Shown piece by piece: positions 13,951 to 58,470 of a stretch of DNA of 64,000 nt. This DNA comes from Moniliella sp. 'wahieum'. Taxonomy: Eukaryota > Basidiomycota > Moniliellomycetes > Moniliellales > Moniliellaceae. The stretch is taken from positions 558,001 through 622,000 of the forward strand of contig RSEE01000031.1 of NCBI GenBank assembly GCA_003971905.1, in the 5' to 3' direction. Positions within the stretch are counted from its first letter, which is position 1. Each line of letters begins with the position of its first letter. The position numbers were made by a program, and so were the translations under genes. The notes beneath the pieces were generated by a model, which saw only the letters and a program-made list of their open reading frames with translations, had not been told where the DNA came from and searched no databases.

Positions 13951-13983
13951 CATGATGCATGATGCATGATGCATGATGCATCA
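13951..13983. repeat. Heptad array CATGATG x4 (copy 1)
   Basis: Four perfect 7-nt units. Read as TGA+TGCA, each unit is the palindrome ATGCAT plus one G spacer. Confidence 0.95.
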
Positions 13984-13988
13984 CCATC

Positions 13989-14014
13989 GGTCACGGTGAC
14001 CCCTCACGGTGAGG
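13989..14014. promoter_or_regulatory. Two adjoining 13-bp odd palindromes
   Basis: GGTCACGGTGACC (13989-14001) abuts CCTCACGGTGAGG (14002-14014). Each is a perfect inverted repeat around a central G, and both share TCACGGTGA. They follow the CATGATG array directly and lie upstream of the minus-strand orphan gene. A dimeric transcription-factor site is possible; function unknown. Confidence 0.4.
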
Positions 14015-14375
14015 CGTGTGAGGCATTTCCTGCCCCTCAGGCCTCGCACCTCACTGGCATGCTTTAAGTATAGCGCGAAAAAAGCTTGGGTGCCACACTG
14101 ACACTGAGAGTTCTGATCACATATAAACCTGACGGGCCTATACGTGCCCAATAACTTTCACAAATGCTATACCCCCTGCGGGATCCCTCTGTGGTCGCAT
14201 ATGTCCCAGGATACATTGCTACCGCCTGTTTAATAGTAACGCGTAACACGAGTACAAAATAGTTTATGCTTCTTTTGAATCCATATCATTGACAGAGCTT
14301 AAGGCTGGGACAGGGGGAACGCTACGTCTAAACCTAAGTGTTCATCTTGGGGGTTACTTGGAAGCGCCACTAAGG

Positions 14376-14663
14376 TCAAGGAACCAGGGGGATCGCCAGG
14401 ATATCAGGACCCTCCGGTTCTCGCCATCCGGTCCCGTACCCTAGGAAGCGCGCGTGGACACGGATGAACGTGGTTGACATCCGAGCGAGGAACCATTTCC
14501 ACTGAGACTTAGTAGCCAACTCCTTCCAATGCGCAAACAACTTGCCCGCTGTCTTGGTGCCGTAGTATCCTCGCGTCGTCAAAACCAGGGGGAAAAACGG
14601 CTCTTGAGTGCGTCCCTGGTACTTGGCGTTCTTGTCGCATTCTGCTTGTTCAAGCAGCTTCTT
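14376..14663 (-). mobile_element. Non-LTR retrotransposon ORF remnant, C-terminal tail (copy 1)
   Basis: An open frame of about 95 codons starts just after a TGA at 14664 and ends DILAIPLVP-stop at 14376. It shows the order typical of the region downstream of reverse transcriptase in LINE-type polyproteins: a charged run (LLEQAECDKNAKYQGRTQ), then FFPLVLTTRGYYG, then a Trp-containing helix and LARMSTTFIRVHARFLG. This resembles the widespread xPLVxxxxG...ARMSxxIxRAxxRxLRG pattern. No RT catalytic motif is present, so only the tail survives. Homology is by memory of the family, not by search. Confidence 0.5.
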
Positions 14664-15420
14664 TCATAAATATGCACAGCCGAAGTTTACAAGACGATGC
14701 GTTCTTCCCGGCCGGTGTGCCCCGTGGACGTCTATCATATATCACCGATCGCCTCCGAAATCGAACATCCGCCCATCACGCGTTCAATGCGTTCGCGCTC
14801 TCAGAGATGAGCCTCATCCTTGTCATCCTTCTCTTGTGCACGTATTGCAGTTCGCCACTGCATCATCCGCGCTGTGGGGCGGGTTCTGCGTTTTACATTC
14901 AAGGTTTCAACCGGACACGCTCGATGGCTTCGTCTCTTCGGCTTCGTCCAACAGTGAAAACACCCACCGTGGTGCCCTCCCTTTAACAATGTCATTTTCA
15001 GAGCACATCCAGTCGAGTAGAGCCGAAACCATAGAGCGAGCCAGGGAAAAGGGCAGAAAACAAAACTACACAGCCAAGTGTGCGTGATTAATGGACGATA
15101 GTTGATGCCGAGGCAGTCCCAAAGCCCTCCCTGAGCCTGAGGCCTGAGGGAAAGAGCAAACAATACTGGGCCCGAACACAAAATCCCAGAGGAAAAGGGA
15201 CGAAAGGTTGGAGAGCGAAGAGTAACTGTCACATGTCACTAATGGCTAGTAAAACTAAAGCTTGAAGCAAATAATGCCAAGGCCTAAAGTAAGGTGTGTG
15301 AGATGCGTGACTCGTGAGGCGCAGAGAATCAGATGTTTTGAAGCGAGGGTCGGTGTGTCTGGGATGCATGTGATGCTCGCTTCGCCTCGTGCCGGAATCC
15401 CTATCTCCCCGCATTGCATA

Positions 15421-15469
15421 TTGAACGTTGAACGTTGAACATTGATCGGTGAGCGGTGAACGTTGAACA
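15421..15469. repeat. Heptad array TTGAACG-type, 7 diverged units (copy 1)
   Basis: Seven consecutive 7-nt units (TTGAACG, TTGAACG, TTGAACA, TTGATCG, GTGAGCG, GTGAACG, TTGAACA). The core is TGA+ACGT in the undiverged units. The strict period is kept even though the units differ. Confidence 0.9.
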
Positions 15470-15545
15470 GCAAACAGTGACTCTCCCTTTAGTACATGCC
15501 GCAACACATATGCCCTCCATTTGTATGGCTCCAGTATAATCATGC

Positions 15546-15573
15546 AGGCCTTAGGCCTTAGGTCTTAGGCCTT
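15546..15573. repeat. Heptad array AGGCCTT x4 (copy 1)
   Basis: AGGCCTT, AGGCCTT, AGGTCTT, AGGCCTT. The palindrome AGGCCT plus one T. It is followed by GACCTAAGGCTTAG, an inverted match of the same motif. Confidence 0.9.
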
Positions 15574-15640
15574 ATTATATGACCTAAGGCTTAGACCAGA
15601 ACCACCACCACCACAGCGATTACATTGCTCTACACTTCCA

Positions 15641-15892: not shown

Positions 15893-15909
15893 AAGCTTCA
15901 AGCTTCAAT
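15893..15909. repeat. Heptad array AAGCTTC x2 (copy 1)
   Basis: AAGCTTC AAGCTTC AAT, then AAGCTTT. The palindrome AAGCTT plus one C. Confidence 0.75.
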
Positions 15910-16192
15910 AAGCTTTAGGCCTCAGGCTGCCTGAGGGTTATAGCCTCAAGTTCAAACCGCCACTCGTACTCATGCACTCATGCTTCATGAGCATGCGGGT
16001 CCACCTCGTCACGACACGAATGCCTCAGGTTCGTTCATACATCTAGCATTTGGGCTTTCGTTGGATTCCATGCCTGATTGTCTAGCTGGCTTGCATCGCA
16101 GCCCCGCATATGGCCATGGCGATTGGCTAACTTGTTGATCATCTAGCCATTCTGGTATACTATCCTTCCTTAAATCACTAGTCACTATAGAG

Positions 16193-16723
16193 TTGTCACT
16201 ATTATTACGCGGTACACATAGTTACTACATCCAGGTTAGTCTCTTAAAGCTTAACGCCAGAAAAAGGGATGCACCTCTGAGTCTGGGGCTCCGTCAAAGT
16301 TATTTGATGGGGTTCAAGTGCCTTCGTTTTCATGTCCGTTGTGGTCATACGCATACAGTTGTGTTCGATCGACGTTTTTCGTACCCATATATACATACCC
16401 GCTCCGCCCGGCAAAGTACCCATCCATACATGAGAAGGGACATTATTGACCGAACAGATCAACTTTTCAGCAGTACTTACACTTGGCCCGCCCTGGGCCT
16501 GAGAGAGGTTGATGGCCACACCGTGTACCACCTCCCAGCCTGGATGATTGTCACCTTGGGGGTATTTGCAGCGATATTATCTCTTGGTAAGCCTGTCACT
16601 CCGGCCATAGTAGTAGGGCCGGAACGAGGGCGTGTGCGCAATATGTTGGCCGAGAAGTCTTATCTCCTTGCCTGTTTGAAGAAGGGTCGCAATGTCACAT
16701 GTCCATGTCACCAGAAGAGATGA
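16193..16723 (+). other. Unclassified open frame in gene-poor block (copy 1)
   Basis: 176-codon frame, with a hydrophobic stretch (AWMIVTLGVFAAILSLG). Copy 2 keeps 44299-44865, but its last part differs because of a 3-4 nt indel near 44706. The opposite strand is also open over 16244-16531 and carries a strong splice donor (GTAAGTACTG near 16475-16485), so the coding strand is undecided. No family recognised. Confidence 0.2.
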
Positions 16724-19335: not shown

Positions 19336-19378
19336 TGAGATCTGAGCGATCTGAGATCTGAGCGATCTGAGATCTGAG
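19336..19378. repeat. Heptad array GATCTGA, 5-6 units with GC spacers (copy 1)
   Basis: TGAGATC-type heptads; every second unit is followed by an extra GC, giving a 16-nt superperiod. The palindrome is AGATCT. It lies about 0.4 kb upstream of the arrestin start. Confidence 0.9.
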
Positions 19379-19760
19379 CCGGCCAAGGTTCAACGTTCAA
19401 GCTCTGATTAGATTAACGCTTAGCCTAAGCACTTAGCAGCCGGAAGGCGCTGCTTCGATTGGGGAATTGAAACATGAATGTTGCCAGCGGATATTGGCGG
19501 CACCGCATGGAGATTGAAATGGGAAACGCACGTGCGAGGCGCCGTGCACGTGACTGCGCAGCAGCGCAGCCTGGGCTGTCGTCAGTCGCTGCGAGTCGCC
19601 GACGCCCGCCAAGAGCCCGCTCACCGGTCACCCCCGCCCTCGCCGCCGCCACCGCCGCCACAACCACACCACACCACCACCACCATCGCCCGGGCCTCAT
19701 CCACCCCCTCGTCGCGTGCCTCCGCTGGCAATCGCTCCTGCTCCAGCCTCCGTTGCTGGG

Positions 19761-24261: not shown

Positions 24262-25567
24262 AGGAAGAGACGGGAGGGGAGGGGAGGGGATGGAAAGATG
24301 AAGGAAGCAAGTGCGGACGGCTCCAGACAGCCACCTCATTAAAACGCAAAGATGGCTCCAATGCCAGTCGACTGGCCACGTGTACGCCCTCCACGTCGCC
24401 CTTCCATGTTGGTCACTCTAATCACTGTCCCGTGAACGCGTGAACATTGCAAAGTGCCACGTCAAGCAAGGCATCATGCATTGTTGATTGTTTCGGTGAT
24501 CGATCCGCGATCGTCCCCCCCAGTTTCCCCTTTCTGGGCCAAGGCAACCTCGGATACCTACTTGGAGGGGTTGGTTGGACGATGTTGAACAGCTTCAACA
24601 TTGAGGGGTGCCAAAGCACATTGGACGACCGAACCTGAAAAAAAAGAGGGACGCGAGGGGTGCGGGGCAGTATAGCCGCGCACGATAATAAATGGTCGAA
24701 AATTAAGTGTCTGTCTTAGCTTGAGGGAAGAGAGGGTTCTGATACTTAGAGCTGATGTGCTGATGCTTGAAGCTTGAAGCTCTTGAAGGAGAGGCATATG
24801 CCTAAAACGGAGAGATGCGCGACGTCGTGCCTCCAGACCTTTCTGATCCGTGGCTCAGTGGAGATAGGGCCAGGGAGCTGATTCCAGCTAGGTAATACTG
24901 CCCGAGTGTCTTCACGGAGACTGTTGGTAGAGAAATGGATATTGAACCTACTACAATTCCCATCTGACTATGAGTCCGCCTCTGAGTCAGGGCCAGTAGA
25001 TGAGAAAAAAAGAAAAATATCAGACTGGGGGTAAGTAAACGATAAGGACTCCCACGATAAGGATGGAACAGGGTAATCACAGGGAGACAAGGCTATAGCC
25101 GCCTTCCCCAACGTACATGGATGACCGAGGCAAGGAAAAGGGAAAGGCTGAAGGGATAAAATGGGAGAGGGGGTGGTGAAAGGGGGGGAGGGGCGAGGGG
25201 TGGAGGCATGGGGCCGACGGAAGAAGAGTCGTAGTAGGGGAGCAGGTCACGTGGAAATAAGGTATCAGACGATTGTGGCAGCCCCATGCCAAGTGAGGGC
25301 AACTTGTTCCCTGTCGCTAGAGGGGAGAGGGTGGGAAGGGTGGAGGGATAGTAACGAAAGGCTTGCCCATGAACCCTCCCGAGTCACGGACCAGAAATGA
25401 GAGGGAGGGAACCGAAGATGAGAAACAGGAGGGCGGATGGATATCAAGCATGAATAGCCGGAGGAGAGACATGGTGGGCACCTTGCTTACCGTGCTGGGC
25501 CCGACGAGAGGATGGTCCCTCCGACACGAACGCAAGCACGGGCATAGCGCGAAAATAAACGGAAGGG
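24262..25567. other. Intergenic region, copy 1 (SEC53 upstream / membrane-protein 3' side)
   Basis: 1.3 kb between two minus-strand genes. It holds the SEC53 promoter side, one heptad array (24765-24789), an A-rich run near 25005 and a G/A-rich run at 25160-25340. No protein-like frame is seen. Confidence 0.5.
24765..24789. repeat. Heptad array GCTTGAA x3 (copy 1)
   Basis: GCTTGAA GCTTGAA GCTCTTGAAG. The palindrome AAGCTT plus one G. Confidence 0.8.
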
Positions 25568-27256: not shown

Positions 27257-27273
27257 TCATTAATCATTAATCA
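27257..27273. repeat. Heptad array TCATTAA x2 (copy 1)
   Basis: The palindrome ATTAAT plus one C, two units and a partial third. Confidence 0.7.
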
Positions 27274-27569: not shown

Positions 27570-27596
27570 TCAGATCTCAGATCTCAGGATCTCAGG
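27570..27596. repeat. Heptad array TCAGATC x3 (copy 1)
   Basis: TCAGATC TCAGATC TCAGGATC TCAGG. The palindrome AGATCT plus one C. Confidence 0.85.
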
Positions 27597-27983: not shown

Positions 27984-28041
27984 GCTTAAAGCTTAAAGCT
28001 TAAAAGCCAAGCTCTAAAGGCTAAGCGCTAAGCGCTAAAGC
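27984..28041. repeat. Two adjoining heptad arrays, GCTTAAA x3 and AGCGCTA x2-3 (copy 1)
   Basis: 27984-28008 is three GCTTAAA units (AAGCTT plus A). 28019-28041 is CTAAGCG units (AGCGCT plus A). Confidence 0.85.
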
Positions 28042-28089: not shown

Positions 28090-28107
28090 ATGCATCATGC
28101 ATCATGC
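28090..28107. repeat. Heptad array ATGCATC x2 (copy 1)
   Basis: The palindrome ATGCAT plus C. Same palindrome as the CATGATG array 14 kb away. Confidence 0.75.
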
Positions 28108-29233
28108 CAGCCTCCCATATGATACGTCCTTCCACTTCCGGCCAAGTCGCAGTAGCATTTCGTAGCACCGTCTCTGGGCTCGGCGCTCATGGCCAACCTC
28201 GGCCAACCCACTCTTCGTCTTTTGCTTCCACTCAGTCAGTACTCAGTGTACCAGTCTGAGAACTCTTCTGCGCAGAGCTTCATTGACTTGACTTTGATAT
28301 AACGCAACATTCCCTACTGTGCGTCTGTCGATCTTTGCAGTGTGAACGCGAATAATGGACCAGCCCCGTTTCCTTCCATATTATACTACACTTTTATCGG
28401 TCTTACCCCCCACGGTGTGGGCGCTACTCAAAGTCTGAAGAACTTCCACAATAGGTGTTCTGGTCTACTGAGGCGGATGTAACCCGCTCCGTACTCTTAA
28501 ACGTTGTAGGGGTTGCAATCCGCGTCGTCTCTTCCCCCCTTTTATCAATGATTTTGAAAGCAAGATTCAAGCAAGGTTCCTTTATGGTTTTAGCGACGTT
28601 GTGGCCAATGGTGGAGGTGAAGGCCAAAAAGAAGCAAGTCGCGTCGGTCAACGGTGACTGGCATGCCCCCGACCCGAATCATCTTACCCCACCCTTCTTT
28701 CTTATTTTGGCGACCTGGTTGATGACGGGATGCGGTCTTTTTGAATGATGGCTTCGAGGCCAGGGGTTGGGTTTCCGAAACAGGGTTGAACCTCTCAACG
28801 AGGTTGCCGCGCACGTCTCCCCGATCATGTACGACCAGCATGGAATTGATGACAAGGACGATGCTATTCAAAGGTTGACTTTTTTGAAGTGAAAGGCTGC
28901 ATATACAGCGTAGGTTCACATTAATGGCCTACTTTTTGACGACACACTATCATATCTCACCGCTGCTGGTCGCGATGCGTGTAGTCAACAATCAGGGAAT
29001 CCAAGAGGCGGGCATTGACACCCTTCTCTGGGGGAAATCGGGGCAGCGATGAAGAAAGTGCTGGAATCCGGCCAGTATGAGGTTGACGGCCCGTTATATC
29101 AAGTCAAGTGCACCAGCAATTTCCAAAAGGGTACAAAACATTGGCCCCTTCGAAGAGATATGAGGTGGTACGTTGGTTCCCACATTGTTGCTCAGCCTAC
29201 CAATGATTAATGATGATGTCAAGGTGGTTTTAA

Positions 29234-29293
29234 CGCGACCGGCTGGCCGAGCCCGGGCCGAGCGCGTTTGCTAGCTACGATCCGGTTTGGTAA
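29234..29293 (+). pseudogene. Duplicated 3' stub of the Tyr/Pro-rich gene
   Basis: The last 19 codons and stop of the gene ending at 1211 (DRLAEPGPSAFASYDPVW) recur here without the rest. The duplication breakpoint cut inside the coding region, so the stub has no start. Confidence 0.9.
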
Positions 29294-29701
29294 CCGCTAC
29301 CCGCTAATCGGTACCCGCGGTACCCTGTCCCTCCCGTCCCGCACGTCGTGTCTGGGTCCGGTTTCTTTTTTTTTTGGGTCCCCTTTTGCTCTCGCCACTG
29401 ATTTGTCTGGGCGCCGGGTTGGTGGGGAGCTTAGTTGTACTATAGGATGCACGTCCCTGTTATCTGGCAAAACGAGCTAAACAAGCTTGATTAGCAAGCA
29501 GGGAGGGTACGCTGGGCTTGGACAGGCGCAAGGCAACAGTAGTAGATTGGAAGTTTGAAGGGTAGGGGGGGGGGAGAGATACGAAATACGAGATACGAGA
29601 GAGGATCGACAAGAAGCTCAACCAAGTTCACACCTTGGAATTGCAGGTTCAACGAAGGCTTCGGCTTTAGGCTTTAGGCTTCAGGCTTCAGGCTTTAGGC
29701 T
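29294..29701. other. Convergent intergenic region, copy 2
   Basis: Counterpart of 1212-1609 with small indels. It holds the six-unit heptad array at its right end. Confidence 0.6.
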
Positions 29702-37878: not shown

Positions 37879-38964
37879 GGTGACGAGGAAGGTGGTGGGG
37901 CCAAGAATGATTTCCTTCGGGGTGGGTGCTGCGGAGCAAACACAGCCGAGCTTCTTGCTGGTTGGGCGAGGGGATGGCTTGCCGGTACTCGATCGTCGAT
38001 GGCAGTTGGTTCTGCGTATCCACACAGGACACCGAGTGCTGAGTTGAGTGTCCTGAGTGCTGAGTGTGGTGTGCTGATACAGTGCTCAGTGAGTAGTGCG
38101 TGAGCGCTGAGCCAGCACGCCCTCAGCGCTGACATGCTGACACTGCCCCCACGGCGTCTGAGAGCGGGCTGGCGGCTCGTGGCACATATGACGTAAGGTG
38201 TGCCTTGCGGCGGGCTGCACGCCGGAGGTTGCCGGCCATAAGGCCTAAGGCGCTCGCTTATAGCTCAGGCGCTCCACAAGCGAAGCGCTTACAACGTCAA
38301 AATTCCAATGCTCAGGCGGGGGACAATCCAACTCGGATGGCCGGTGGCGGCGCAACGAGTAACCATCGGGACCCATACACGGCCTGCACAGCCACTGCCA
38401 TCCCACCAGCTAGAGAGACCAGCCCAGCCCTTCTGGGGCGTCCGCGGTCTGATGGGAGCCCCCCGGGGCGGCGTTTTTCTCACGACTCGCGCCCAGTCTC
38501 CCTCTCGCCTCTTCCAAACAACGCTCACCCACGCAGACATCCTAGTACTCCTGTTGCGCTCGCCTCCGCACCACCCCTATACCGAACAAACAGGAGGAGG
38601 CAATACAGGATGAGCGGCACGAGTATGATGGCATTCGAAAGAACGGATACGAGAGAAACATCGTGACAAAAATCAGGGCCGTACCGTGACCCCATAAGAC
38701 CAACAAACATTGGGTCAGACGGATGGGTTAGGGAGCCGTGGGTGCCGGCGTCTGGGACGGCAAAACAGGAGGGTCAGGGCGGTACGAGCGAGGGTAAATA
38801 GGGGTAGGGCGAGGACGATGGTACATCATCACAGGCGCCGTACCGATCGCGACCCGGTTCCGGCCCGAGTCGGGGTGGACAGGTGCGCTGGACGGCAAAC
38901 GCGACGGTGCAACAGGCGTTGGTGGGTGCGAATCAGAAGTAAGAGGGGCGTGGCAGGCCGGAGG
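37879..38964. other. Intergenic region, copy 2
   Basis: Counterpart of 9782-10832. A 61-codon minus-strand frame at 38525-38710 (MFVGLMGSRYG...) with one hydrophobic helix exists only here, because of an indel near 38656. The orphan-gene frame continues open for 78 codons after its TGA (38964 down to about 38731). Confidence 0.4.
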
Positions 38965-41440
38965 TCAGGTCCTGCTGGCCAGATGCGACAAGATGCGTCG
39001 GCCCAGTGGTTCTTCTTCTCCGTGTTTCTCTTCTTCGTCCGGGGGACGGGGGAGCGGCTTGAGGTCCCTTGCTTGCGGCACATACAGATCGGGCAGGAGC
39101 GCATACCGTTTCGTGTTGGGGTACCTTGGGCTGCCCTGTTTAGGCGAGCTCAAGCAGGGCGAAGATTCTCTCGGGGGAGATAAGAGCGCCTCCAGGGCAT
39201 TGGTGTCCGTCGAACCATGAGCCACTTGTTGGCCCGCATGTCTGGATTCCGATCCAGGCCGTTGCGGCACCGGCATTCCCCGTCCCGCCCTGACATACGA
39301 AATAGGGGTGCGTGTTCGAGGGGGAGGCGGGGTGAGACCAAGCTTGTCCAATACCTCTGCGATGCGTGCGTCCTGGGAAAAAGCTTCGGCCTCGGGCGCG
39401 GGAGCAGAGTGATCGTGTATCGAGGGCAAGTCAGTTGGGATGTAAGTTGTGGGCATGGGTGAACCCTGCGGTGCTGAGCCCACCGGGGACCGAGGTGGAC
39501 AAGGGCAAGGAGAGGACACTGGTTCCTCCGCTGCACCTGCTTTCCCACGGCGAGGAAATCGCGAAGACGACTCAGAGGTGGCGCGACGTTCTCGCAACGT
39601 CAGCGGAACGATCATAGGCGATGGCAACGCCGTCGGTGTAGGAATTGGCATGGGAGCTGAGATTTCGCCAATGGCCGACACCCCAGGGCTAGAGGGTTCC
39701 TTGGCCAAGAAGTTTTTCGTGTTGTGATGGGAGGGTGGAGAAAATGAGCCAGGAGATCGATTGAGATGAAGGTGCTGAGGTGGCACAACGTGCCGCAACC
39801 CCGCGAGGGAAAGTGGTTTGCGAAATCCTTTTGAAGGCTTGGGCGAGTCGGGCGTGGAAACAGACCGTTCCTTGCGCCAGCTAGAACGATGATGGAAGTC
39901 CCACAATTGGCCGTTTTCTTTCGACGACAAAACTGGGGGGCAAATTTTGCCCTTTTTCTGGCGTCCCATCTCGACCGAATTGGGAGTCGTATAGGGCCTG
40001 TTGGACAAAAAGACACTGGGCTCCAAATCATTCGAAACGGTACCATCCCCGCTGGATGGAATCGGGCCGAGAGAATGAGCCCGATATGGGGTTGTAGTCT
40101 TTGGCGGCGCGGCCAGAAAAGGAGAGTCGGACATCATCTCTACTGGAGGGACAGTGGTTAATGATGATGGTGCCATGGTGGACGCAGGTTGGATAGGGGT
40201 TGATGGCGAGAAGCAGCTTTGGGGAATAGAGAAAGCGCCATGCGCCGTTGCCTGCACAGGCAACGGAGATGTTGGGGAGACAACTCGGGTGTCCGAGGAG
40301 TTAAGATGCAAGTTGAGGGTATCAAGGGCCGGCAGAGGGGGAGGATCGGGCTTAATCCACCCGTGCCGTTTATATGGCATTGGAGAGAGGGAACATTCCG
40401 ACCTGGCGAATTTTCCCGAGAGGGACGGGGGTGAACCAAATTCGGGCAACTTGGCTGTGCGTCCGCTCCGTGGGGAGACAGCTTTCCTCGCATGATGTTC
40501 GTGCAACCCGTGAAGATTGCCGAGTGAAACTGCTTTAAGGGGCCCTCTACCGCCCAATGGATGGGAGGGGGAGCGACGCGGAGGGCTCTCCGGCTGGAAG
40601 ACAGGAATGACAGTGTCGTCCACGGTCAGAGCGCCTGTAGGGGTAGAAAAAGACGCCGTCTGCAACCCGAGCTCCTCGGTTGAGGAGGGTCGATTCTCAA
40701 GGCTGGTAAGGGATGTGTCGGCGGCGTTGGCAGAGGCATGAGGTAAAGCAGGAGTAGGAGCTGATTGGCGACGATGCTATGCTGGTTGCAACAGGTACAG
40801 TAAACGGAACATCCAACATGGATGCTGGCAATTTACACTGCTCCACGGGGCTGCCCTCAAGTACAGCTGATTCTGCACTCAAATCGCTCAAGAACTTATT
40901 ATCGTTCTACAGGGAAGAAAAAACAAGTCAGCACTTTTGGATGGAATTCTCGATCCCCATGCAACATAGGATGGCGGCAGCGGCGGGCAAGGAACGAACC
41001 TTATCCCACATGTCGTCGTCGACGCTGGTGCCGCCAAAGCTGTCGTCGGAGCTGTAGCGGCTCGCGGAGGAACCATGAGAAGAGCGCAGAGGAAGGTCGT
41101 GAAGCAAGGATCGCCACAGGCCGACGCCGACACCACCGCTCTCGTGACGGCTTGGTGAATCCGGCGGTATAGCGAGACCAGTCGGCCTGTGGAGCGCGTG
41201 GCGGGAGCCATGATGTAGGGGTGTACTAGACGAGCCGGGATTCATGGGCGAGGGCGCGTCGCCAGGTCGGGGGAGGAGAGAGATGGTGGTAGAGCGAAGG
41301 AGAGTGGAAGGCGGGAGACATATGGTATGAGGCACTGGATTTGAGCTATAAGCCGATGCGAACGAGAGGCCCATGGGGGAAAGGAGGCGGCAAGAAGTGT
41401 GCTCCAATGCCGGCGGCGGACCATCGATGATCGATGACAT
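38965..41440 (-). CDS. Large disordered orphan protein, copy 2
   Basis: Exon 1 41000-41440, intron 40907-40999, exon 2 38965-40906. About 790 aa. Most of exon 2 is one open frame of over 560 codons here (from QTASFSTPTGALTVDD), the best evidence that this is a real gene. The frame is broken once near 40750 (SYSALPHASANAAD is open in copy 1). The copy-2 C-terminus is GRRILSHLASRT at TGA 38965-38967, in TGA-C context. The copy-1 C-terminus differs by one base and ends SGLPRPSYF. Ser/Pro-rich throughout; no known domain and no membrane segment. The start codon region overlaps ATCGATGATCGATG, another heptad pair. Confidence 0.7.
40907..40999 (-). other. Orphan-gene intron, copy 2
   Basis: 93 nt, GTTCGT...CTGTAG; same as in copy 1. 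Confidence 0.75.
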
Positions 41441-42057
41441 GTGACAGGGCCCCTTCACGCTACCTTGACAGAGTCCTGAGGCTCAGGCCAGAGCGCCCGA
41501 GCCGTCGAATGCGGTCGCTGGCGTGGGATGTGCTGGCAGGTGCCGGTGGGTGTGCGTGTATGAAACAAATATAGGCCAATACAGAGCGCTACAATGGCAC
41601 GACGCACTCGACACTGCCCCGGTGCGGACGGGGCGTGCGGCTGCTGGGCCGAGCCGCTGGGCGTGGCACTGGTCTCCGCACCAAGCTCCCCAGGGCGCTC
41701 CTCCGGGGCACGGCGCCGCTCGTGAGCGCCTCATTCCCAGACCTCAGGCTTCTGCATCACACATCTTTTTGCCTCCTCACCTGTCGTGCACACATGTCGC
41801 AGGAGCAGCGGCTATGAGCTACTAACTACTAGGGCTCGACGGTGTGAAGCCCGCCGGAAGCGAAGGTCGGAGATGCGCAACTGCCCATGCCCATGCTACT
41901 CACACGCATATGGTGCAATTTCTCCTCTCGGGCATCTCATCTGTTGCTCCTCCTCCGACCCGAAGAGTACGTGGCAGACGCGGCGGTCCATTGCCACGCG
42001 TTCCACAGCGCCCTGTTCGCTATCGTGTCTGCTGGTATGGGGGGCAACCGCCGGACT

Positions 42058-42090
42058 CATGATGCATGATGCATGATGCATGATGCATCA
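42058..42090. repeat. Heptad array CATGATG x4 (copy 2)
   Basis: Identical to 13951-13983. Confidence 0.95.
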
Positions 42091-42121: not shown

Positions 42122-42483
42122 CGTGTGAGGCATTTCCTGCCCCTCAGGCCTCGCACCTCACTGGCATGCTTTAAGTATAGCGCGAAAAAAGCTTGGGTGC
42201 CACACTGACACTGAGAGTTCTGATCACATATAAACCTGACGGGCCTATACGTGCCCAATAACTTTCACAAATGCTATACCCCCTGCGGGATCCCTCTGTG
42301 GTCGCATATGTCCCAGGATACATTGCTACCGCCTGTTTAATAGTAACGCGTAACACGAGTACAAAATAGTTTATGCTTCTTTTGAATCCATATCATTGAC
42401 AGAGCTTAAGGCTGGGACAGGGGGAACGCTACGTCTAAACCTAAGTGTTCATCTTGCGGGGTTACTTGGAAGCGCCACTAAGG

Positions 42484-42786
42484 TCAAGGAACCAGGGGGA
42501 TCGCCAGGATATCAGGACCCTCCGGTTCTCGCCATCCGGTCCCGTACCCTAGGAAGCGCGCGTGGACACGGATGAACGTGGTTGACATCCGAGCGAGGAA
42601 CCATTTCCACTGAGACTTAGTAGCCAACTCCTTCCAATGCGCAAACAACTTGCCCGCTGTCTTGGTGCCGTAGTATCCTCGCGTCGTCAAAACCAGGGGG
42701 AAAAAACGGCTCTTGAGTGCGTCCCTGGTACTTGGCGTTCTTGTCGCATTCTGCTTGTTCAAGCAGCTTCTTTCATAAATATGCAC
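42484..42786 (-). mobile_element. Non-LTR retrotransposon ORF remnant (copy 2)
   Basis: Same fragment as 14376-14663. One extra A near 42706 moves the N-terminal part out of the protein-like frame seen in copy 1. FFPLVLTTRGYYG and the tail are intact. Confidence 0.5.
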
Positions 42787-43526
42787 AGCCGAAGTTTACA
42801 AGACGATGCGTTTCTTCCCGGCCGGTGTGCCCCGTGGACGTCTATCATATATCACCGATCGCCTCCGAAATCGAACATCCGCCCATCACGCGTTCAATGC
42901 GTTCGCGCTCTCAGAGATGAGCCTCATCCTTGTCATCCTTCTCTTGTGCACGTATTGCAGTTCGCCACTGCATCATCCGCGCTGTGGGGCGGGTTCTGCG
43001 TTTTACATTCAAGGTTTCAACCGGACACGCTCGATGGCTTCGTCTCTTCGGCTTCGTCCAACAGTGAAACACACCCACCGTGGTGCCCTCCCTTTAACAA
43101 TGTCATTTTCAGAGCACATCCAGTCGAGTAGAGCCGAAACCATAGAGCGAGCCAGGGAAAAGGGCAGAAAACTACACAGCCAAGTGTGCGTGATTAATGG
43201 ACGATAGTTGATGCCGAGGCAGTCCCAAAGCCCTCCCTGAGCCTGAGGCCTGAGGGAAAGAGCAAACAATACTGGGCCCGAACACAAAATCCCAGAGGAA
43301 AAGTTGGACGAAAGGTTGGAGAGCGAAGAGTAACTGTCACATGTCACTAATGGCTAGTAAAACTAAAGCTTGAAGCAAATAATGCCAAGGCCTAAAGTAA
43401 GGTGTGTGAGATGCGTGACTCGTGAGGCGCAGAGAATCAGATGTTTTGAAGCGAGGGTGTGTGTCTGGGATGCATGTGATGCTCGCTTCGCCTCGTGCCG
43501 GAATCCCTATCTCCCCGCATTGCATA

Positions 43527-43575
43527 TTGAACGTTGAACGTTGAACATTGATCGGTGAGCGGTGAACGTTGAACA
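43527..43575. repeat. Heptad array TTGAACG-type, 7 units (copy 2)
   Basis: Identical to 15421-15469. Confidence 0.9.
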
Positions 43576-43651
43576 GCAAACAGTGACTCTCCCTTTAGTA
43601 CATGCCGCAACACATATGCCCTCCATTTGTATGGCTCCAGTATAATCATGC

Positions 43652-43679
43652 AGGCCTTAGGCCTTAGGTCTTAGGCCTT
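43652..43679. repeat. Heptad array AGGCCTT x4 (copy 2)
   Basis: Identical to 15546-15573. Confidence 0.9.
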
Positions 43680-43746
43680 ATTATATGACCTAAGGCTTAG
43701 ACCAGAACCACCACCACCACAGCGATTACATTGCTCTACACTTCCA

Positions 43747-43936: not shown

Positions 43937-44298
43937 TAATGGACGCGATAGAGGAGTTTTTTAGCACGCACTTAATATGGTACACCTGCTCTTTTCACAA
44001 GCTTCAAGCTTCAATAAGCTTTAGGCCTCAGGCTGCCTGAGGGTTATAGCCTCAAGTTCAAACCGCCACTCGTACTCATGCACTCATGCTTCATGAGCAT
44101 GCGGGTCCACCTCGTCACGACACGAATGCCTCAGGTTCGTTCATACATCTAGCATTTGGGCTTTCGTTGGATTCCATGCCTGATTGTCTAGCTGGCTTGC
44201 ATCGCAGCCCCGCATATGGCCATGGCGATTGGCTAACTTGTTGATCATCTAGCCATTCTGGTATACTATCCTTCCTTAAATCACTAGTCACTATAGAG

Positions 44299-44865
44299 TT
44301 GTCACTATTATTACGCGGTACACATAGTTACTACATCCAGGTTAGTCTCTTAAAGCTTAACGCCAGAAAAAGGGATGCACCTCTGAGTCTGGGGCTCCGT
44401 CAAAGTTATTTGATGGGGTTCAAGTGCCTTCGTTTTCATGTCCGTTGTGGTCATACGCATACAGTTGTGTTCGATCGACGTTTTTCGTACCCATATATAC
44501 ATACCCGCTCCGCCCGGCAAAGTACCCATCCATACATGAGAAGGGACATTATTGACCGAACAGATCAACTTTTCAGCAGTACTTACACTTGGCCCGCCCT
44601 GGGCCTGAGAGAGGTTGATGGCCACACCGTGTACCACCTCCCAGCCTGGATGATTGTCACCTTGGGGGTATTTGCAGCGATATTATCTCTTGGTAAGCCT
44701 GTCACTCCCCATAGTAGTAGGGCCGGAACGAGGGCGTGTGCGCAATATGTTGGCCGAGAAGTCTTATCTCCTTGCCTGTTTGAAGAAGGGTCGCAATGTC
44801 ACATGTCCATGTCACCAGAAGAGATGATGTTCGAGAGGTTTATCATTAACGCGGTTCTCTTATAA
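44299..44865 (+). other. Unclassified open frame in gene-poor block (copy 2)
   Basis: 188 codons. The first two thirds match copy 1; the end differs after the indel near 44706. Status unknown. Confidence 0.2.
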
Positions 44866-47450
44866 GAGGCACCGACTCAGGCAAATCAGTGTAGCAATAC
44901 ATACTGATACCAGCCGGGGCACGTTCTCTCGAAAGCTGCCGCTGTTGGACTCAAAAAAAGGGGACAACAGTTTATTCATGACAGGCTGGGCAACAGAATC
45001 GAGTGAAGCGCGTGCGCGTGTGGTTGTACTTCTTCCATGCGGGAGAAGTATTATATATTAGCGAGCGCTGACAAGGGGATGGAACCAACCAGGGCCGAAG
45101 TGGCCCAGGACACCACATGGACAAAAGCCGAGATGTGCTGCTGCTGCCCTTCAGAGGCGGGACCGACGACGCGATATGTCGGCGGAGCGTCCAAGGATTG
45201 TGGTCCTATAAAACGGTAACTCCGTATATAATACACCAAAAATATTATCGTCTTGGTAAACGAAGCGCTGGCCAAATCGTGCGGGCTCGATAAGGCGCAG
45301 CAGTGAGACGGTGGTGCCACCGGAGAGGCAAGAGCCAAAACACGGACCGAGTAGATATAACAGAGCGGGGCAAAACGCTGATCTGCGTCCTGCTGCAGCG
45401 CGTGGGAGTGATCCAGCACATTCGCAACGATCAATGGGGGATTTTTCAACATCCGACACGGTTGAAGACGTTGAAGAGTCTGTATGTTTCAGGTGCTCAT
45501 TCTGTAGGTCAGCACTTTCATCACTTCAGTGGTGGGCAAAAATATAGAGTGCGTGTCACGGGCGAAGACGGGCTAGCAAGCCCGCCAGCGCTGTTATCCA
45601 ATTCTACGTATATCCGTGCGGCATCTCAGTATAGTCGCCTCTCTTTCCCATGTGAATTGGTAGCCACCGCGTGGCCACCCAATTGCCAGTACCATTGGCG
45701 TCTCCCCCTACTCTCCTCGCCAATTTGAACAACCCAGTACGAGCAACTTCTTAGTTGCTCCTCCGATTCCCGTCCTCGTCCTACAGCTCCGTCTTCAGCT
45801 CTCCATCCCTCAGACAAAACCTAGTTCCCGTGGGCCTCCCAGGTGCCACGTCGTTGCCGGCTGTTTCATTAAGTGAGAGGTGAGGTCTTACTGATGGTTT
45901 TACAGGTCAAGCAGGGTGCTGGCGACAAGGCTAGGCCGCTTGGCGGATGTGCTCTCGCTGCCGTTCACAATACCACGGTGGTATATATTTGTCGGTGCCG
46001 ATGGACATAATATAGGACGAGCAGGGGTAGTAGTGGTAAAGCACAGAACAGAAGGATGGTCTGTTTTGATGCGTTGATTGGAGACGGGGACACATCACCC
46101 ACTCACAACCTTCCATATAGTCCCATGTCTCCCGCGCCCTCGGACATCTCTATCCCTACTTCGCCCATCCCCAACGCCCCCCCGCCTATGTCCGCCAGTT
46201 CACACACCGAACACCTTCGTCACACGGGCGTCTCGACTTCTATATATCTGGAGGATGCCTTGCATAATAGGTCGGCGTAGGACCCTTCACCCAACCCCCG
46301 GTGGCTACAGCCTCCCATGCGGGCTTCCTCCCACAGCCACGACTTGTCTGGGTGGGCGCGTGAGGTGGTCCTTTCCATTCCCTATATCTTTGCCCCAGTT
46401 GGCTCTCGGCGGCGATCGACACAAACACCCTTATATAACCGCGAATACTATTCAGGCTCTCATTCTGTATATCCTCTCGTTCCCACAACTCTATGACACA
46501 CTATCACCGGCAAAAGAAGAGATCCGTAGGCACTTCTCGGTGAGACCTGGGTGTATACCTCTGCAGAAGTCTGCCCTTCTCGGGGAGGCCCCTCCCTGAT
46601 ACCCCTACCCCTGCTTTCACGTGCACCGTCGCTACCTGCTGCCCACTAAGAATGGAGGCAAGCCCTGCGGACGCCCCGCCTACACCGGCAGCAGTACAAC
46701 CTTACCCCCCAGAGAGTTCGCTGATGCATGCAGTACTTCCCCTATACCGGGCAAATAATGACGCCTCCGTTATAGCAGAGCCCGACATTTACCCTCCACA
46801 CCGTCTGCCTCTTAGCGCCCTCTCACCAGGAGAGCACGTCCTCCGCGGATGCTGCCAGCTCCCCAGCAGTCTCACATTCCCGTCACTTTCCCACCCCCCC
46901 CCTAACCGCACTTTTGAGGACCTCACATTTCCTGCCGCTACCTCCCACAAGTCTCGTCGCCCAACTCGGGTGTTCACGTTCCCCTCCTATCCCCAATGAA
47001 ACCGCTTTGGCGTCTTTGGAAACTAGTGCCCCGGTGTCTCTCCTTCATCATTCCTCCTCCTATTACGATCAAAGTACAAAATTGCTTCGTCCTTTTGATG
47101 CACCGCAAGCCCGCTGATCCAAACAATCGAGCCACTCTCGATAGCAGCGATTGCCTCGTCAACGCCACAAGGTTAGCTTTGTGTGGACCATATGTATACC
47201 AACAGGGCCGCGAGTTTGGTTCCATACTCCCCATGGCTCTCTCATCGATCTCATCCCGCCCCTCTCGGCATTCGGCACCATAAGGCGACCGATGATAATG
47301 ATGCAGCAGGCGCACGCGCACGTGCCCCTGTGTCAGATGCCAGACAGAGCTCAAGACCGCTGGCAAAACCGGTCGGGGAGGGTGGATCATGCATCTTGGC
47401 TCGAGACAAGGCGGAAGTCTGCCGGAGAATTGAGAAGATCTGAACCTCTG

Positions 47451-47493
47451 TGAGATCTGAGCGATCTGAGATCTGAGCGATCTGAGATCTGAG
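47451..47493. repeat. Heptad array GATCTGA with GC spacers (copy 2)
   Basis: Identical to 19336-19378. Confidence 0.9.
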
Positions 47494-47874
47494 CCGGCCA
47501 AGGTTCAACGTTCAAGCTCTGATTAGATTAACGCTTAGCCTAAGCACTTAGCAGCCGGAAGGCGCTGCTTCGATTGGGGAATTGAAACATGAATGTTGCC
47601 AGCGGATATTGGCGGCACCGCATGGAGATTGAAATGGGAAACGCACGTGCGAGGCGCCGTGCACGTGACTGCGCAGCAGCGCAGCCTGGGCTGTCGTCAG
47701 TCGCTGCGAGTCGCCGACGCCCGCCAAGAGCCCGCTCACCGGTCACCCCGCCCTCGCCGCCGCCACCGCCGCCACAACCACACCACACCACCACCACCAT
47801 CGCCCGGGCCTCATCCACCCCCTCGTCGCGTGCCTCCGCTGGCAATCGCTCCTGCTCCAGCCTCCGTTGCTGGG

Positions 47875-48226: not shown

Positions 48227-48260
<34 letters not shown>

Positions 48261-52365: not shown

Positions 52366-53670
52366 AGGAAGAGACGGGAGGGGAGGGGAGGGGATGGAAA
52401 GATGAAGGAAGCAAGTGCGGGACGCTGCTCCAGACAGCCCACCTCATTAAAACGCAAAGATGGCTCCAATGCCAGTCGACTGGCCACGTGTACGCCCTCC
52501 ACGTCGCCCTTCCATGTTGGTCACTCTAATCACTGTCCCGTGAACGCGTGAACATTGCAAAGTGCCACGTCAAGCAAGGCATCATGCATTGTTGATTGTT
52601 TTCGGTGATCGATCCGCGATCGTCCCCCCCAGTTTCCCCTTTCTGGGCCAAGGCAACCTCGGATACCTACTTGGAGGGGTTGGTTGGACGATGTTGAACA
52701 GCTTCAACATTGAGGGGTGCCAAAAGCACATTGGACGACCGAACCTGAAAAAAGAGGGACGCGAGGGGTGCGGGGCAGTATAGCCGCGCACGATAATAAA
52801 TGGTCGAAAATTAAGTGTCTGTCTTAGCTTGAGGGAAGAGAGGGTTCTGATACTTAGAGCTGATGTGCTGATGCTTGAAGCTTGAAGCTCTTGAAGGGAG
52901 AGGCATATGCCTAAAACGGAGAGATGCGCGACGTCGTGCCTCCAGACCTTTCTGATCCTGTGGCTCAGTGGAGATAGGGCCAGGGAGCTGATTCCAGCTA
53001 GGTAATACTGCCCGAGTGTCTTCACGGAGACTGTTGGTAGAGAAATGGATATTGAACCTACTACAATTCCCATCTGACTATGAGTCCGCCTCTGAGTCAG
53101 GGCCAGTAGATGTAGAAAAAAAGAAAAATATCAGACTGGGGGTAAGTAAACGATAAGGACTCCCACGATAAGGATGGATACAGGGTCATCACAGGGAAGA
53201 CAAGGCTATAGCCGCCTTCCCCCACCGTACCATGGATGACCGAGGCAAGGAAAAGGGAAAGGTCTGAAGGGATAAAATGGGAGAGGGGGTGAAAGGGGGC
53301 GGAGGTGGAGGCATGGGGCCGACGGAAGAAGAGATCGTAGTAGGGGAGCAGGTCACGTGGAAATAAGGTATCAGACGATTGTGGCAGCCCCATGCCAAGT
53401 GAGGGCAACTTGTTTCCCTGTCGCTAGAGGGGAGAGGGTGGGAAGGGTGGAGGGATAGTAACGAAAGGCTTGCCCATGAACCCTCCCGAGTCACGGACCA
53501 GAAATGATTGGAGGGAACCGAAGATGAGAACAGGAGGGCCGGATGGATCAAGCACCTGAATAGCCGGAGGAGACATGGTGGGCACCTTGCTTACCGTGCT
53601 GGGCCCGACGAGAGATGGTCCCTCCGACACCGAACGCAAGCACCGGGCATAGCGCGAATAAACGGAAGGG
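52366..53670. other. Intergenic region, copy 2
   Basis: Counterpart of 24262-25567. SEC53 promoter side and membrane-protein 3' flank. It differs from copy 1 by many small indels in the G/A-rich stretch at 53280-53560. Confidence 0.5.
52873..52897. repeat. Heptad array GCTTGAA x3 (copy 2)
   Basis: Matches 24765-24789. Confidence 0.8.
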
Positions 53671-55366: not shown

Positions 55367-55383
55367 TCATTAATCATTAATCA
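55367..55383. repeat. Heptad array TCATTAA x2 (copy 2)
   Basis: Identical to 27257-27273. Confidence 0.7.
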
Positions 55384-55679
55384 CTACTAGTCACTGGCAT
55401 CCACATCGCTGCCAGTGTCAGTCACCTAGTCAAGCTAGTCGCCGCTCACCGCTCACCTGCCGTCGCCACCACCACCAACAGAAGATCGCCGTAACGATTG
55501 TGATCATTTCATTGATTTCTGTGCATGTTGGGCAGATGGCCGCCTAGACCTGGGAGCAACTGGGAGGCGCGTGCGCAAGAATTTGTGACGATCGATGATC
55601 GCAGCGTGTCCTAGGACCAGACCACCCTGTACTCGGGGCTGGCAGGTCGCCTTGGCCTCGAGTTTCGCGCAGCCACGCG

Positions 55680-55706
55680 TCAGATCTCAGATCTCAGGAT
55701 CTCAGG
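55680..55706. repeat. Heptad array TCAGATC x3 (copy 2)
   Basis: Identical to 27570-27596. Confidence 0.85.
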
Positions 55707-56093
55707 GAGGAAGATACTCCGCAACGCGTAACAGTGCGTAACGCGCATACCGCAGATGGCAGAACAACGGGCACAAAGCGGAGAGCTTTGAATGTGTCAC
55801 GGCAGCCTCTCCGCGACTGGCCGTCTGCATGGGCAAGGAGATTGGCGAGACCATCCGTGCCTCTACCAGAGGGGGCACGACGGTATCAGCGGTGCCTGAC
55901 GCACTAGTGTGGCTCGCCAGTGTGGCTCGCCCAAACTCGGCTTCTTCGTTCCGGCTGATCCAGCCACACCTCCATTCAGCACACGGCCACTATTCGTTCT
56001 GCGCCCACTGACTGTATTGAGTATTGAGTCTCAGTACTGACTAGGACTAGCGTCTGAAGAAGGCACTGAGCAACTGAGTACACTGGTACTGAG

Positions 56094-56151
56094 GCTTAAA
56101 GCTTAAAGCTTAAAAGCCAAGCTCTAAAGGCTAAGCGCTAAGCGCTAAAGC
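56094..56151. repeat. Heptad arrays GCTTAAA x3 and AGCGCTA x2-3 (copy 2)
   Basis: Identical to 27984-28041. Confidence 0.85.
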
Positions 56152-56199
56152 TGCTTCAGGAAGCTCGCGCTGATCCTGCTCGGTCATCGATCGTGCACC

Positions 56200-56217
56200 A
56201 TGCATCATGCATCATGC
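56200..56217. repeat. Heptad array ATGCATC x2 (copy 2)
   Basis: Identical to 28090-28107. Confidence 0.75.
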
Positions 56218-57418
56218 CAGCCTCCCATATGATACGTCCTTCCACTTCCGGCCAAGTCGCAGTAGCATTTCGTAGCACCGTCTCTGGGCTCGGCGCTCAT
56301 GGCCAACCTCGGCCAACCCACTCTTCGTCTTTTGCTTCCACTCAGTCAGTACTCAGTGTACCAGTCTGAGAACTCTTCTGCGCAGAGCTTCATTGACTTG
56401 ACTTTGATATAACGCAACATTCCCTACTGTGCGTCTGTCGATCTTTGCAGTGTGAACGCGAATAATGGACCAGCCCCGTTTCCTTCCATATTATACTACA
56501 CTTTTATCGGTCTTACCCCCCACGGTGTGGGCGCTACTCAAAGTCTGAAGAACTTCCACAATAGGTGTTCTGGTCTACTGAGGCGGATGTAACCCGCTCC
56601 GTACTCTTAAACGTTGTAGGGGTTGCAATCCGCGTCGTCTCTTCCCCCTTTTATCAATGATTTTGAAAGCAAGATTCAAGCAAGGTTCCTTTATGGTTTT
56701 AGCGACGTTGTGGCCAATGGTGGAGGTGAAGGCCAAAAAGAAGCAAGTCGCGTCGGTCAACGGTGACTGGCATGCCCCCGACCCGAATCATCTTACCCCA
56801 CCCTTCTTTCTTATTTTGGCGACCTGGTTGATGACGGGATGCGGTCTTTTTGAATGATGGCTTCGAGGCCAGGGGTTGGGTTTCCGAAACAGGGTTGAAC
56901 CTCTCAACGAGGTTGCCGCGCACGTCTCCCCGATCATGTACGACCAGCATGGAATTGATGACAAGGACGATGCTATTCAAAGGTTGACTTTTTTGAAGTG
57001 AAAGGCTGCATATACAGCGTAGGTTCACATTAATGGCCTACTTTTTGACGACACACTATCATATCTCACCGCTGCTGGTCGCGATGCGTGTAGTCAACAA
57101 TCAGGGAATCCAAGAGGCGGGCATTGACACCCTTCTCTGGGGGAAATCGGGGCAGCGATGAAGAAAGTGCTGGAATCCGGCCAGTATGAGGTTGACGGCC
57201 CGTTATATCAAGTCAAGTGCACCAGCAATTTCCAAAAGGGTACAAAACATTGGCCCCTTCGAAGAGATATGAGGTGGTACGTTGGTTCCCACATTGTTGC
57301 TCAGCCTACCAATGATTAATGATGATGTCAAGGTGGTTTTGAAGGCGAGTGATTTGCTATTGAGACGTTATTTGGTTCTAGAATCTGTGGACCGATCATC
57401 CCTCAGAGGGCGAGTTAA

Positions 57419-57958
57419 GCCATACACTTCCCCGAACAATTCTGGTCTCCCCGGCCATGCGATAACGTTGCGTCATTTGCAGAGCGCCAAAAGAAATACA
57501 TTTTTTGCTTCGCCCCATTGACTACAACTTTGGCACGATTCCCTGGCGCCACTGTTATCTGGAACGGGCAGGGGAAGAAGAATCACTTTGCTTGGTTTGC
57601 GCCACCCTACTCAGCTGTTGAGCAAGGGATTCTGATCGTACAGGACGTTGTCCCCCCCTGGCCCGCATTCCTGTCTCAATGACGGTTCAGTTTGAGCATA
57701 TCCTCCTCCTTTTCCATCCAGCGGGAAAAAGCGGATGTTTCGTGTGGCGAGATGACTACTACCTCGTTCGCCGTGGTAGCATGGGTCTTAGGGATGAGGC
57801 CGGGAGTGTACTTCTACACATGTGCCAAAAAACGGTTACCATCAGTATGTATCGTCCGTTCTGCCCGTCTTTTGGTTCGCTGCGGCATATTGGGGTCTCA
57901 GAGATCTCCGATCTCCGATCTCATTAGGCTCGTCACATACACGACCTATACACAGTAG
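57419..57958 (+). pseudogene. Decayed ORF of unknown family
   Basis: One frame runs from after a TAA at 57416-57418 to TAG 57956-57958, interrupted by a single TGA at 57680-57682. The first part reads FPEQFWSPRPCDNVASFAER, then ARFPGATVIWNGQGKKNHFA and VEQGILIVQDVVPPWPAFLSQ. The part after the TGA includes TTSFAVVAWVLGMRPGVYFY. Composition (many Trp, Phe and Tyr, few low-complexity runs) is unlike GC-driven shadow frames and unlike neighbouring genes. No start codon context and no recognised domain. It could be a transposon remnant, or exons of a gene whose 5' part was cut by the duplication edge at 57340. Confidence 0.35.
57899..57923. repeat. Heptad array GATCTCC x3
   Basis: GAGATCTCC GATCTCC GATCTCA. 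Unique flank, outside the duplicated unit. Confidence 0.8.
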
Positions 57959-58470
57959 ACTGCTGGGTCGATGATATAATGGGCGGCAAAAATGCGGGTG
58001 GGTTTTGGCGGTGCTGTACCGTGCTGTACCCAGAATGAGCGATGTAGATGAGACCGATGAGGTCGATAAGGTCGGTATTGTTTCAACTACTGTGATGATT
58101 TGGTGATGGCTGTGGGGGTGCTGGTGTGGGCCACTCGCAAATACACTAACCTAGCTGTTGGTCCGATCGGCCCGCCTTGCTAGGAGCGATTGCTGAGCTA
58201 AGCGCTAAGTCCTGCTGGACGACCATCGATCAGCGTCAAACGTCAACGTGTCAAGGAATGATCGATGATCGATGACCTCGATGGTCTGATCAACGTTGAG
58301 GCCAATTGAAATGTCAAGTTCAACATGCCCTCCAAAGTAGTCCCATTGGCGATTGCAGCGATGCTGACCTAAGAATTGCAACTGGGTCTGTGAGGGGGCC
58401 GCACACGAGACCGACTGAGACCAGCCGCGCCGGCGAGATCACGTACCAGTCAAGTTCCCCCAATTCGAGC
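57959..58470. other. Intergenic region upstream of second arrestin
   Basis: Holds GTGCTGTACC twice in tandem (near 58010), GATGAGACCGATGAGGTCGA-type repeats (58050-58075), an AGCGCT element near 58200 and a TGATCGA array. It probably contains the arrestin promoter. Confidence 0.5.
58260..58276. repeat. Heptad array TGATCGA x2
   Basis: The palindrome ATCGAT plus one G. Unique flank; the same unit overlaps the orphan-gene start codon at 13316-13329. Confidence 0.75.

Follow-up and report, generated by a model that had tools for sequence, protein, structure and literature searches.

Palindromic heptads in the genome of Moniliella sp. 'wahieum' as probable products of seven-base fold-back insertion at TNA

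Why does one stretch of the Moniliella sp. 'wahieum' genome carry so many short palindromes framed by the trinucleotide TNA? The stretch (contig RSEE01000031.1, positions 558,001 to 622,000; 64,000 nucleotides, hereafter the window) had been described in a first-pass annotation as holding at least a dozen separate tandem arrays between genes, with a strict period of 7 nt and a unit made of T-N-A plus a 4-bp palindrome. We found that the tandem arrays are a minority and a by-product, and that most sites are single events. An insertion, usually of 7 bp, has a TNA as its target, repeats that TNA with the same N, and places between the two copies new bases that are the reverse complement of those beside the TNA. 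From the pattern of bases, we consider it probable (about 0.6) that these sites were made by a sequence-directed mutation process that generates seven-base fold-back, or snap-back, insertions at TNA.

Is the seven-base period real, and does it extend beyond this locus? All 12 of the arrays described earlier can be read at their coordinates, and 11 contain an exact period-7 run of at least 15 bases of the type described. The strict period holds for those 11; the array at 19336 is interrupted (TGA GATC TGAGC GATC) and repeats with a period of 16. Most of the window consists of two copies of a segment of about 28 kb, and the chains of the two copies are not independent. Between window positions 28,091 and 64,000 there are 23 period-7 runs, compared with 0.6 in shuffled sequence and 0-14 runs at the other periods from 4 to 12. 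A fully palindromic unit is found in 16 of these 23, and all 16 are of the A....T type. The assembly that holds the window is eukaryote-sized, with 223 contigs totalling 69.5 Mb; the G+C content of the sampled stretches is about 58%. We also sampled contigs C1-C4 at fixed positions, as 20 stretches of 10 kb each, and period-7 runs were again in strong excess over shuffles (76 vs 3.3). Palindromic units are over-represented among these heptads: 42 of the 76 are fully palindromic, 41 of the 42 with A..T closure, compared with 1/19 at period 5, 1/63 at period 6, 0/18 at period 8 and 0/42 at period 9. The heptad rule of the first-pass annotation, including the A..T-closed palindrome, is right.

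How common are the sites, and which TNA words do they use? We pooled the 20 stretches with window positions 28,091-64,000 into a 236-kb sample; because 28,091-29,238 recurs at 56,201-57,348, 1.1 kb of this sample and 3 of its 152 chains enter twice. TNA-palindrome-TNA occurs 187 times in this sample, compared with 10.3 in shuffles, and at least once in every one of the 20 stretches. The excess is seen for each N (TGA 84 vs 2.6 expected, TCA 73 vs 3.8, TTA 11 vs 0.2, TAA 18 vs 0.6); the mixed pairs TGA..TCA and TCA..TGA number 8 and 13 vs about 3 each, and control words flanking a palindrome give 4 vs 3.2 (ACA) and 0 vs 1.4 (AGT). In 50 kb of Escherichia coli, a bacterium and hence a weak negative control, TNA-palindrome-TNA was found 7 times (2.3 in shuffles). 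The 152 chains comprise 127 single, 17 double and 7 triple units and one of five units, and they use 15 of the 16 possible palindromes, of which TGCA is the commonest (28). Genome-wide, the exact 21-mer TGATGCATGATGCATGATGCA, which is three units of TGATGCA, has 453 matches, and the same letters reversed have none. If the 144 TNA-palindrome-TNA places found in 200 kb (shuffles give about 10 per 236 kb) are typical, an extrapolation from contigs C1-C4 suggests about 50,000 sites genome-wide, or roughly 0.7 per kb.

What is the elementary unit? Run lengths of A..T-palindromic heptads peak at exactly 12 nt (61 vs 4 in one shuffle), and the 12-nt runs start at T and end at x or, on the other strand, start at X and end at A. 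Because of this peak, we take the unit to be a five-base word TNAwx, then XW, then the word again: TNAwx-XW-TNAwx, 12 bp, where XW is the reverse complement of wx. Scored on both strands of the 236-kb sample, this unit occurs 220 times vs 0.8 in shuffles (222 vs 1.0 with a second shuffle set), and it is absent from the E. coli sequence. The earlier heptad grammar thus survives, with a true unit that is longer, mostly single, and usually carries the same N on both sides (218 of 240). Beyond TNA itself little seems to be specified. Among 66 clean single events, which are those with at most one extra matching base (2 counted twice), N tracks genomic TNA frequency (TGA 28, TCA 25, TTA 8, TAA 5), wx is free (14 of 16 dinucleotides seen), and 60 flanking positions show no strong preference, the largest single-position chi-square being 13.8. 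When the first and third bases were changed to the 15 other pairs, with 60 matches overlapping TNA sites set aside, counts fell to 1 to 22 (0.7 to 3.7 expected), which is about tenfold rarer or more. Stem lengths other than two show no comparable excess beyond shadows of the 7-bp events and general tandem repeats.

TNANN direct repeats with 1-4 spacer bases are all enriched. The extra spacer bases equal the base or bases preceding the TNA in 16 of 21 cases of the 8-bp type and in 20 of 34 of the 9-bp type, so that the duplicated word then has 6 or 7 bases. Six-base duplications with one spacer outside TNA sites, which we also considered, are common, yet the complement rule holds in only 119 of 558 (about 1 in 4 expected), and they look like general short tandem repeats.

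Where do the inserted bases come from? For a TNA in the context ab-TNA-cd, with primes for complements, an insertion templated by the neighbouring bases predicts a palindrome equal to the left flank (b'a'ab) or to the right flank (cdd'c'). This flank rule is obeyed by 130 of the 152 chains; with permuted flanks the mean is 25 and the maximum in 500 permutations is 44. For mixed arrays the left flank should set the left palindrome and the right flank the right one, and in three of five this holds on both sides. This result bears on the possibility that the sites are selected arrays of protein-binding sites with TNA half-sites, the spaced dimer-binding sites of the first-pass annotation. Such sites might well lie between genes, and 131 chains do lie outside long reading frames (118,741 bp) vs 21 inside (117,169 bp; inside meaning stop-to-stop frames of at least 200 codons), so that the arrays are mostly, though not exclusively, intergenic. 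An intergenic bias would, however, also be expected from 7-bp frameshifts. Nearly every palindrome is used, TNA lies in no strong sequence context, the flank largely decides which palindrome a site has, and events sit within solo copies of long terminal repeats (LTRs). We therefore regard binding sites as very unlikely.

What did the sites look like before they were filled? In related copies, a site with a single five-base word in one copy holds that word twice in the other, separated by two copied-back bases, a gain of 7 bp. We found nine such empty/filled cases, four exact and five with one further substitution. The empty sites carry a single copy of the word, and eight of the nine are not palindromic, the exception being TG-TGA-CA in the L024/L069 pair described below. 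Because of these eight, we conclude that the palindrome is a product of the event. Of two copies of an 83-bp repeat, one (L009) has the single word TCTTA and the other (L018) has TCTGA-GA-TCTGA, with one substitution. We also compared 40 copies (L029-L068) of an abundant solo-LTR family whose members are about 220 bp long and have 5-bp duplications; the genome has 586 first-look candidates for it. Among the 40, 7-bp inserts with one base changed are present in L031 (TCAGG) and L039 (GATAA); at the GATAA site of L039, other copies read GAAAA or GGAAA. L039 has a second 7-bp insert, at TGAGA, again with one substitution. Across 93 genome-wide copies of one solo-LTR segment there are three +7 insertions, all of TNA form: TCAAG-CT-TCAAG at C44:160962 and TCAGG-CC-TCAGG at C154:66058 are exact, and TCAAA-TT-TCAAG at C110:125085 has one substitution. 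Copies of this segment with ACCAGG for ATCAGG, and so without the TNA, carry no insert at that place, and a +15 insertion at C154:15364 seems to hold two events. The solo-LTR family is a good substrate for reading mutation spectra.

The last comparison is an 8-kb duplicate pair, L024 and L069, 93.2% identical, whose members differ by two exact TNA inserts, GGTAA-CC-GGTAA and TGACA-TG-TGACA; the latter was aligned with a gap of 6 bp, next to which one more base differs. As a separate observation, L069 carries after a solo LTR (C16 near 33960) a complex TNA-rich cluster, TGA-ACGT-TGA-GT-TCA-ACGT-TCA-TCGA-TCA, where its sister L024 has TGATGATTTTCC. The cluster includes a 10-bp inverted repeat, as though a fold-back had copied a longer stretch.

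Could ordinary tandem-repeat slippage, aided by hairpin-forming heptads, produce the same picture? The first-pass annotation had offered hairpin-primed slippage or snap-back synthesis as generating mechanisms. The arrays do look like heptanucleotide microsatellites: homogeneous palindromic arrays reach 44 bp, adjacent units are mostly alike (58 same, 13 different), and 25 of the 152 chains have at least two units. Yet single units are in large excess, empty sites have one copy of the word, and slippage cannot create two new inverted bases. Periods 5 and 9 could form such hairpins and show no excess, and G..C closure is seen in 1 of 42 palindromic runs. Slippage as the primary step is therefore improbable, though it may still lengthen arrays; snap-back synthesis fits both the empty and filled sites and the flank rule.

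How might fold-back copying make such an insertion? A DNA 3' end that has passed d'c'-TN'A would fold back, with TNA as the loop of a hairpin that has a 2-bp stem and a 3-base loop, and the folded end would copy two bases of itself. Once back on the original template, synthesis would start again from the hairpin's foot, and five bases would be made twice with two inverted bases between them. This would turn ab-TNA-cd into ab-TNA-cd-d'c'-TNA-cd or, on the other side, into ab-TNA-b'a'-ab-TNA-cd. If the loop took in one or two bases besides TNA (4 or 5 in all), the rarer 8- and 9-bp versions could result, and repeated events at one TNA, perhaps together with slippage, could build the heptad arrays. 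The fixed geometry and the TNA rule suggest an enzyme (a nuclease, a transposase-like protein or a specialised polymerase) that would act at TNA and make a nick or a hairpin end. An equivalent description would start from a break with a 5-base stagger, one hairpin end of which is opened two bases off centre, as for P nucleotides; sequence alone does not separate the two views. Somewhat short of even odds, in our estimate, is the more specific proposal of a dedicated TNA-recognising activity, which would make a nick or hairpin-ended break two bases away, be followed by two-base fold-back repair, and have left tens of thousands of insertions; it would be a mutator with a fixed grammar, either programmed or derived from a parasite.

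Several observations weigh against fold-back insertion at TNA as a complete account. Fold-back copying alone accounts neither for the need for TNA nor for a copy of exactly two bases. The TNA rule is not absolute, with weak classes at CNA (22), TNG (13), GNA (11 vs 2.0) and TNT (9). A GNA loop is very stable in DNA, and the rarity of GNA counts against the reading for that reason. N differs between the two sides in 22 of 240 units, 22 of 152 chains match neither flank, and of the five mixed arrays one matches on the left only and one on neither side. The 93-copy segment also holds misfits of +10 (C104:201526, which may be a longer variant) and +4 (C20:335569), and none of 70 copies of a second solo-LTR segment has an event. 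Eight solo-LTR rows have 7-bp inserts: two fit, one (L034) lacks a TNA, and five reflect a subfamily difference of 5-7 bp next to a TGG microsatellite; in this tally the GATAA event of L039 was aligned as 9 bp. The L024/L069 pair also differs by an 18-bp indel and others that break the rule.

Are the sites instead the footprints of transposon excision? On this reading, which we consider unlikely, elements with 5-bp TNANN target duplications (6-7 bp in variants) would have left, and an off-centre opening of the hairpin ends would have added two P bases. As with P nucleotides in V(D)J junctions and in the footprints of hairpin-opening transposons, the events here add two palindromic bases at an end. 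A duplicated TNANN with two end-complementary bases is what such a footprint should look like, XW being the reverse complement of the terminal wx, and the 1-4 base spacers noted above also fit a target-site duplication around residual bases. The Tc5 transposon has a CTNAG target and duplicates TNA. Similarly, the cut site of Tc4 elements is C|TNA|G, and they too duplicate TNA, the core that is duplicated here (PMC11071193, in the accessible part of the text). Unlike Tc4 and Tc5, the events here need no C or G beside the TNA, and their four added bases come from the host flank. A 3-bp TNA duplication around a 4-bp element-end footprint was dropped once the two inverted bases had been traced to the flank. 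With wx free, these two bases do not come from a constant element end, and the five-unit chain would require repeated reinsertion at one TNA. No recombination signal was seen.

A search of 288 kb for inverted-repeat elements, the window duplication included, gave no convincing element. Pairs of 8-base inverted repeats with TNA-type duplications numbered one with 5 bp, eight with 4 bp, one with 6 bp and none with 7 or 8 bp; nine of these ten have matching ends of 11-13 bases and the tenth has ends of 20, lengths that could arise by chance. One of the inverted-repeat scans was limited to 3-bp duplications. Transposases of the hAT, DDE_4, DDE_1, Plavaka and KDZ types had no genome matches, which is weak evidence for the four types other than DDE_4, as the control genomes were silent for them too; LTR integrase, the positive control, had 148. 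Scars of an LTR integrase were likewise rejected, as only 3 of 23 5-bp duplications of one local LTR family are of TNA type (37 of 40 copies were used, and 14 of the 37 had no clear duplication).

How does fold-back insertion at TNA compare with known mutation processes? We know of no fixed length and no fixed target word for template-switch, or quasi-palindrome, mutations; in this respect the present insertions, usually of 7 bp and targeted to TNA, are unlike them. In both, neighbouring sequence is copied as its reverse complement and synthesis then returns to the original template, here visible as the repeated word (PMC7954356, as far as its text is accessible). Our literature search, partial for subscription journals, did not find the seven-base TNA rule. 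The nearest known systems, on partly accessible sources, are short-range fold-back and template-switch mutations (PMC7954356), foldback priming at breaks (PMC10622511) and the TNA-targeted Tc4 elements (PMC11071193). The combination of a TNA event with a 5-bp duplication at about 0.7 per kb sets these sites apart from P nucleotides as well, and the process behind them does not seem to have been described. Randomness or slippage is the usual explanation for small insertions; this frequent class has a target word, a fixed length and a base-by-base templating rule. Such sites could be used to assay fold-back DNA synthesis, or the processing of hairpin ends, in a natural setting. They are also a record of past TNA events and a candidate trace of a TNA-acting enzyme. 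In genomes like this one, palindromic repeats that might be taken for binding sites may instead have arisen by mutation.

Could the window's sites be an artefact of assembly or sequencing? Most of the window is duplicated in tandem, the period being about 28.1 kb (1151-28200 and about 29233-56310), continuing into the recurrent segment that begins at 28,091. The sites are listed here by position in the window, with strand not assigned; "no flank match" refers to the flank rule.

10138..10147: TAA-GGCC-TAA, right flank rule obeyed
13321..13337: TGA-TCGA-TGA-CATG-TGA, mixed chain, both flanks as predicted
13953..13976: TGA/TGCA chain, 3 units
14237..14246: TAA-CGCG-TAA, no flank match
14735..14744: TCA-TATA-TCA
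15138..15147: TGA-GGCC-TGA
15229..15238: TCA-CATG-TCA
15422..15438: TGA/ACGT chain, 2 units
15457..15466: TGA-ACGT-TGA
15551..15560: TTA-GGCC-TTA
15565..15574: TTA-GGCC-TTA, no flank match
15898..15907: TCA-AGCT-TCA
16175..16184: TCA-CTAG-TCA
16245..16254: TAA-AGCT-TAA
16946..16955: TTA-TATA-TTA
19336..19377: three TGA-GATC-TGA units (19336, 19352, 19368), GC-interrupted, period 16
19390..19399: TCA-ACGT-TCA
19621..19630: TCA-CCGG-TCA
24768..24777: TGA-AGCT-TGA
27257..27273: TCA/TTAA chain, 2 units, no flank match
27570..27586: TCA/GATC chain, 2 units, no flank match
27987..28003: TAA/AGCT chain, 2 units
28022..28038: TAA/GCGC chain, 2 units
28095..28104: TCA-TGCA-TCA
28236..28245: TCA-GTAC-TCA
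29204..29213: TGA-TTAA-TGA
38101..38110: TGA-GCGC-TGA, one base missing in the other duplication copy
38239..38248: TAA-GGCC-TAA, second copy of 10138
41428..41444: TGA-TCGA-TGA-CATG-TGA, second copy of 13321
42060..42083: TGA/TGCA chain, 3 units, second copy
42344..43346: second copies of TAA-CGCG-TAA (42344), TCA-TATA-TCA (42845), TGA-GGCC-TGA (43244) and TCA-CATG-TCA (43337)
43528..43680: second copies of TGA/ACGT (43528, 43563) and TTA/GGCC (43657, 43671)
44004..45060: second copies of TCA-AGCT-TCA (44004), TCA-CTAG-TCA (44281), TAA-AGCT-TAA (44351) and TTA-TATA-TTA (45051)
47451..47745: second copies of TGA-GATC-TGA (47451, 47467, 47483), TCA-ACGT-TCA (47505) and TCA-CCGG-TCA (47736)
52876..52885: TGA-AGCT-TGA, second copy
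55367..55696: second copies of TCA/TTAA (55367) and TCA/GATC (55680)
56097..56355: second copies of TAA/AGCT (56097), TAA/GCGC (56132), TCA-TGCA-TCA (56205) and TCA-GTAC-TCA (56346)
57313..57322: TGA-TTAA-TGA, second copy of 29204
58199..58208: TAA-GCGC-TAA, unique right flank
58259..58275: TGA/TCGA chain, 2 units, unique right flank, no flank match

The two copies are 98.7% identical over 27,227 aligned positions and differ by gaps (326 positions) far more than by mismatches (30), as in long-read assembly, and the duplication may be either recent or in part an assembly effect. However, each of the 26 chains in copy 1 has an identical counterpart in copy 2, which excludes random read errors for them, and the inserts follow one rule at many loci; we find an artefact hardly credible. 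The only extra chain of copy 2, at 38101, differs from copy 1 by one missing base there. We dropped the idea of using the duplication as a time series, as the arrays are identical in both copies; it serves only against read error.

An Rfam scan of the window had no matches. The window encodes a eukaryotic phosphomannomutase, whose matches come in separate pieces as if interrupted by introns, and part of a P-type ATPase. Elsewhere in the genome, L021 holds a pair of 180-bp LTRs (2862-3044 and 6320-6499; TGTCA..TGACA) 3.4 kb apart with a 5-bp duplication, ACCAC, and 442 first-look candidates for this type of LTR were found in the genome. Heptad arrays of other kinds also occur. A 110-bp array of GCACCAA at L009:9014-9123 has period 7 and is non-palindromic. 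GGCTTTA/AGGCTTC arrays at window positions 1575-1608 and 29663-29707 are not fully palindromic, differ in copy number between the duplicates (4.9 vs 6.4), and resemble a plant-type telomere word.

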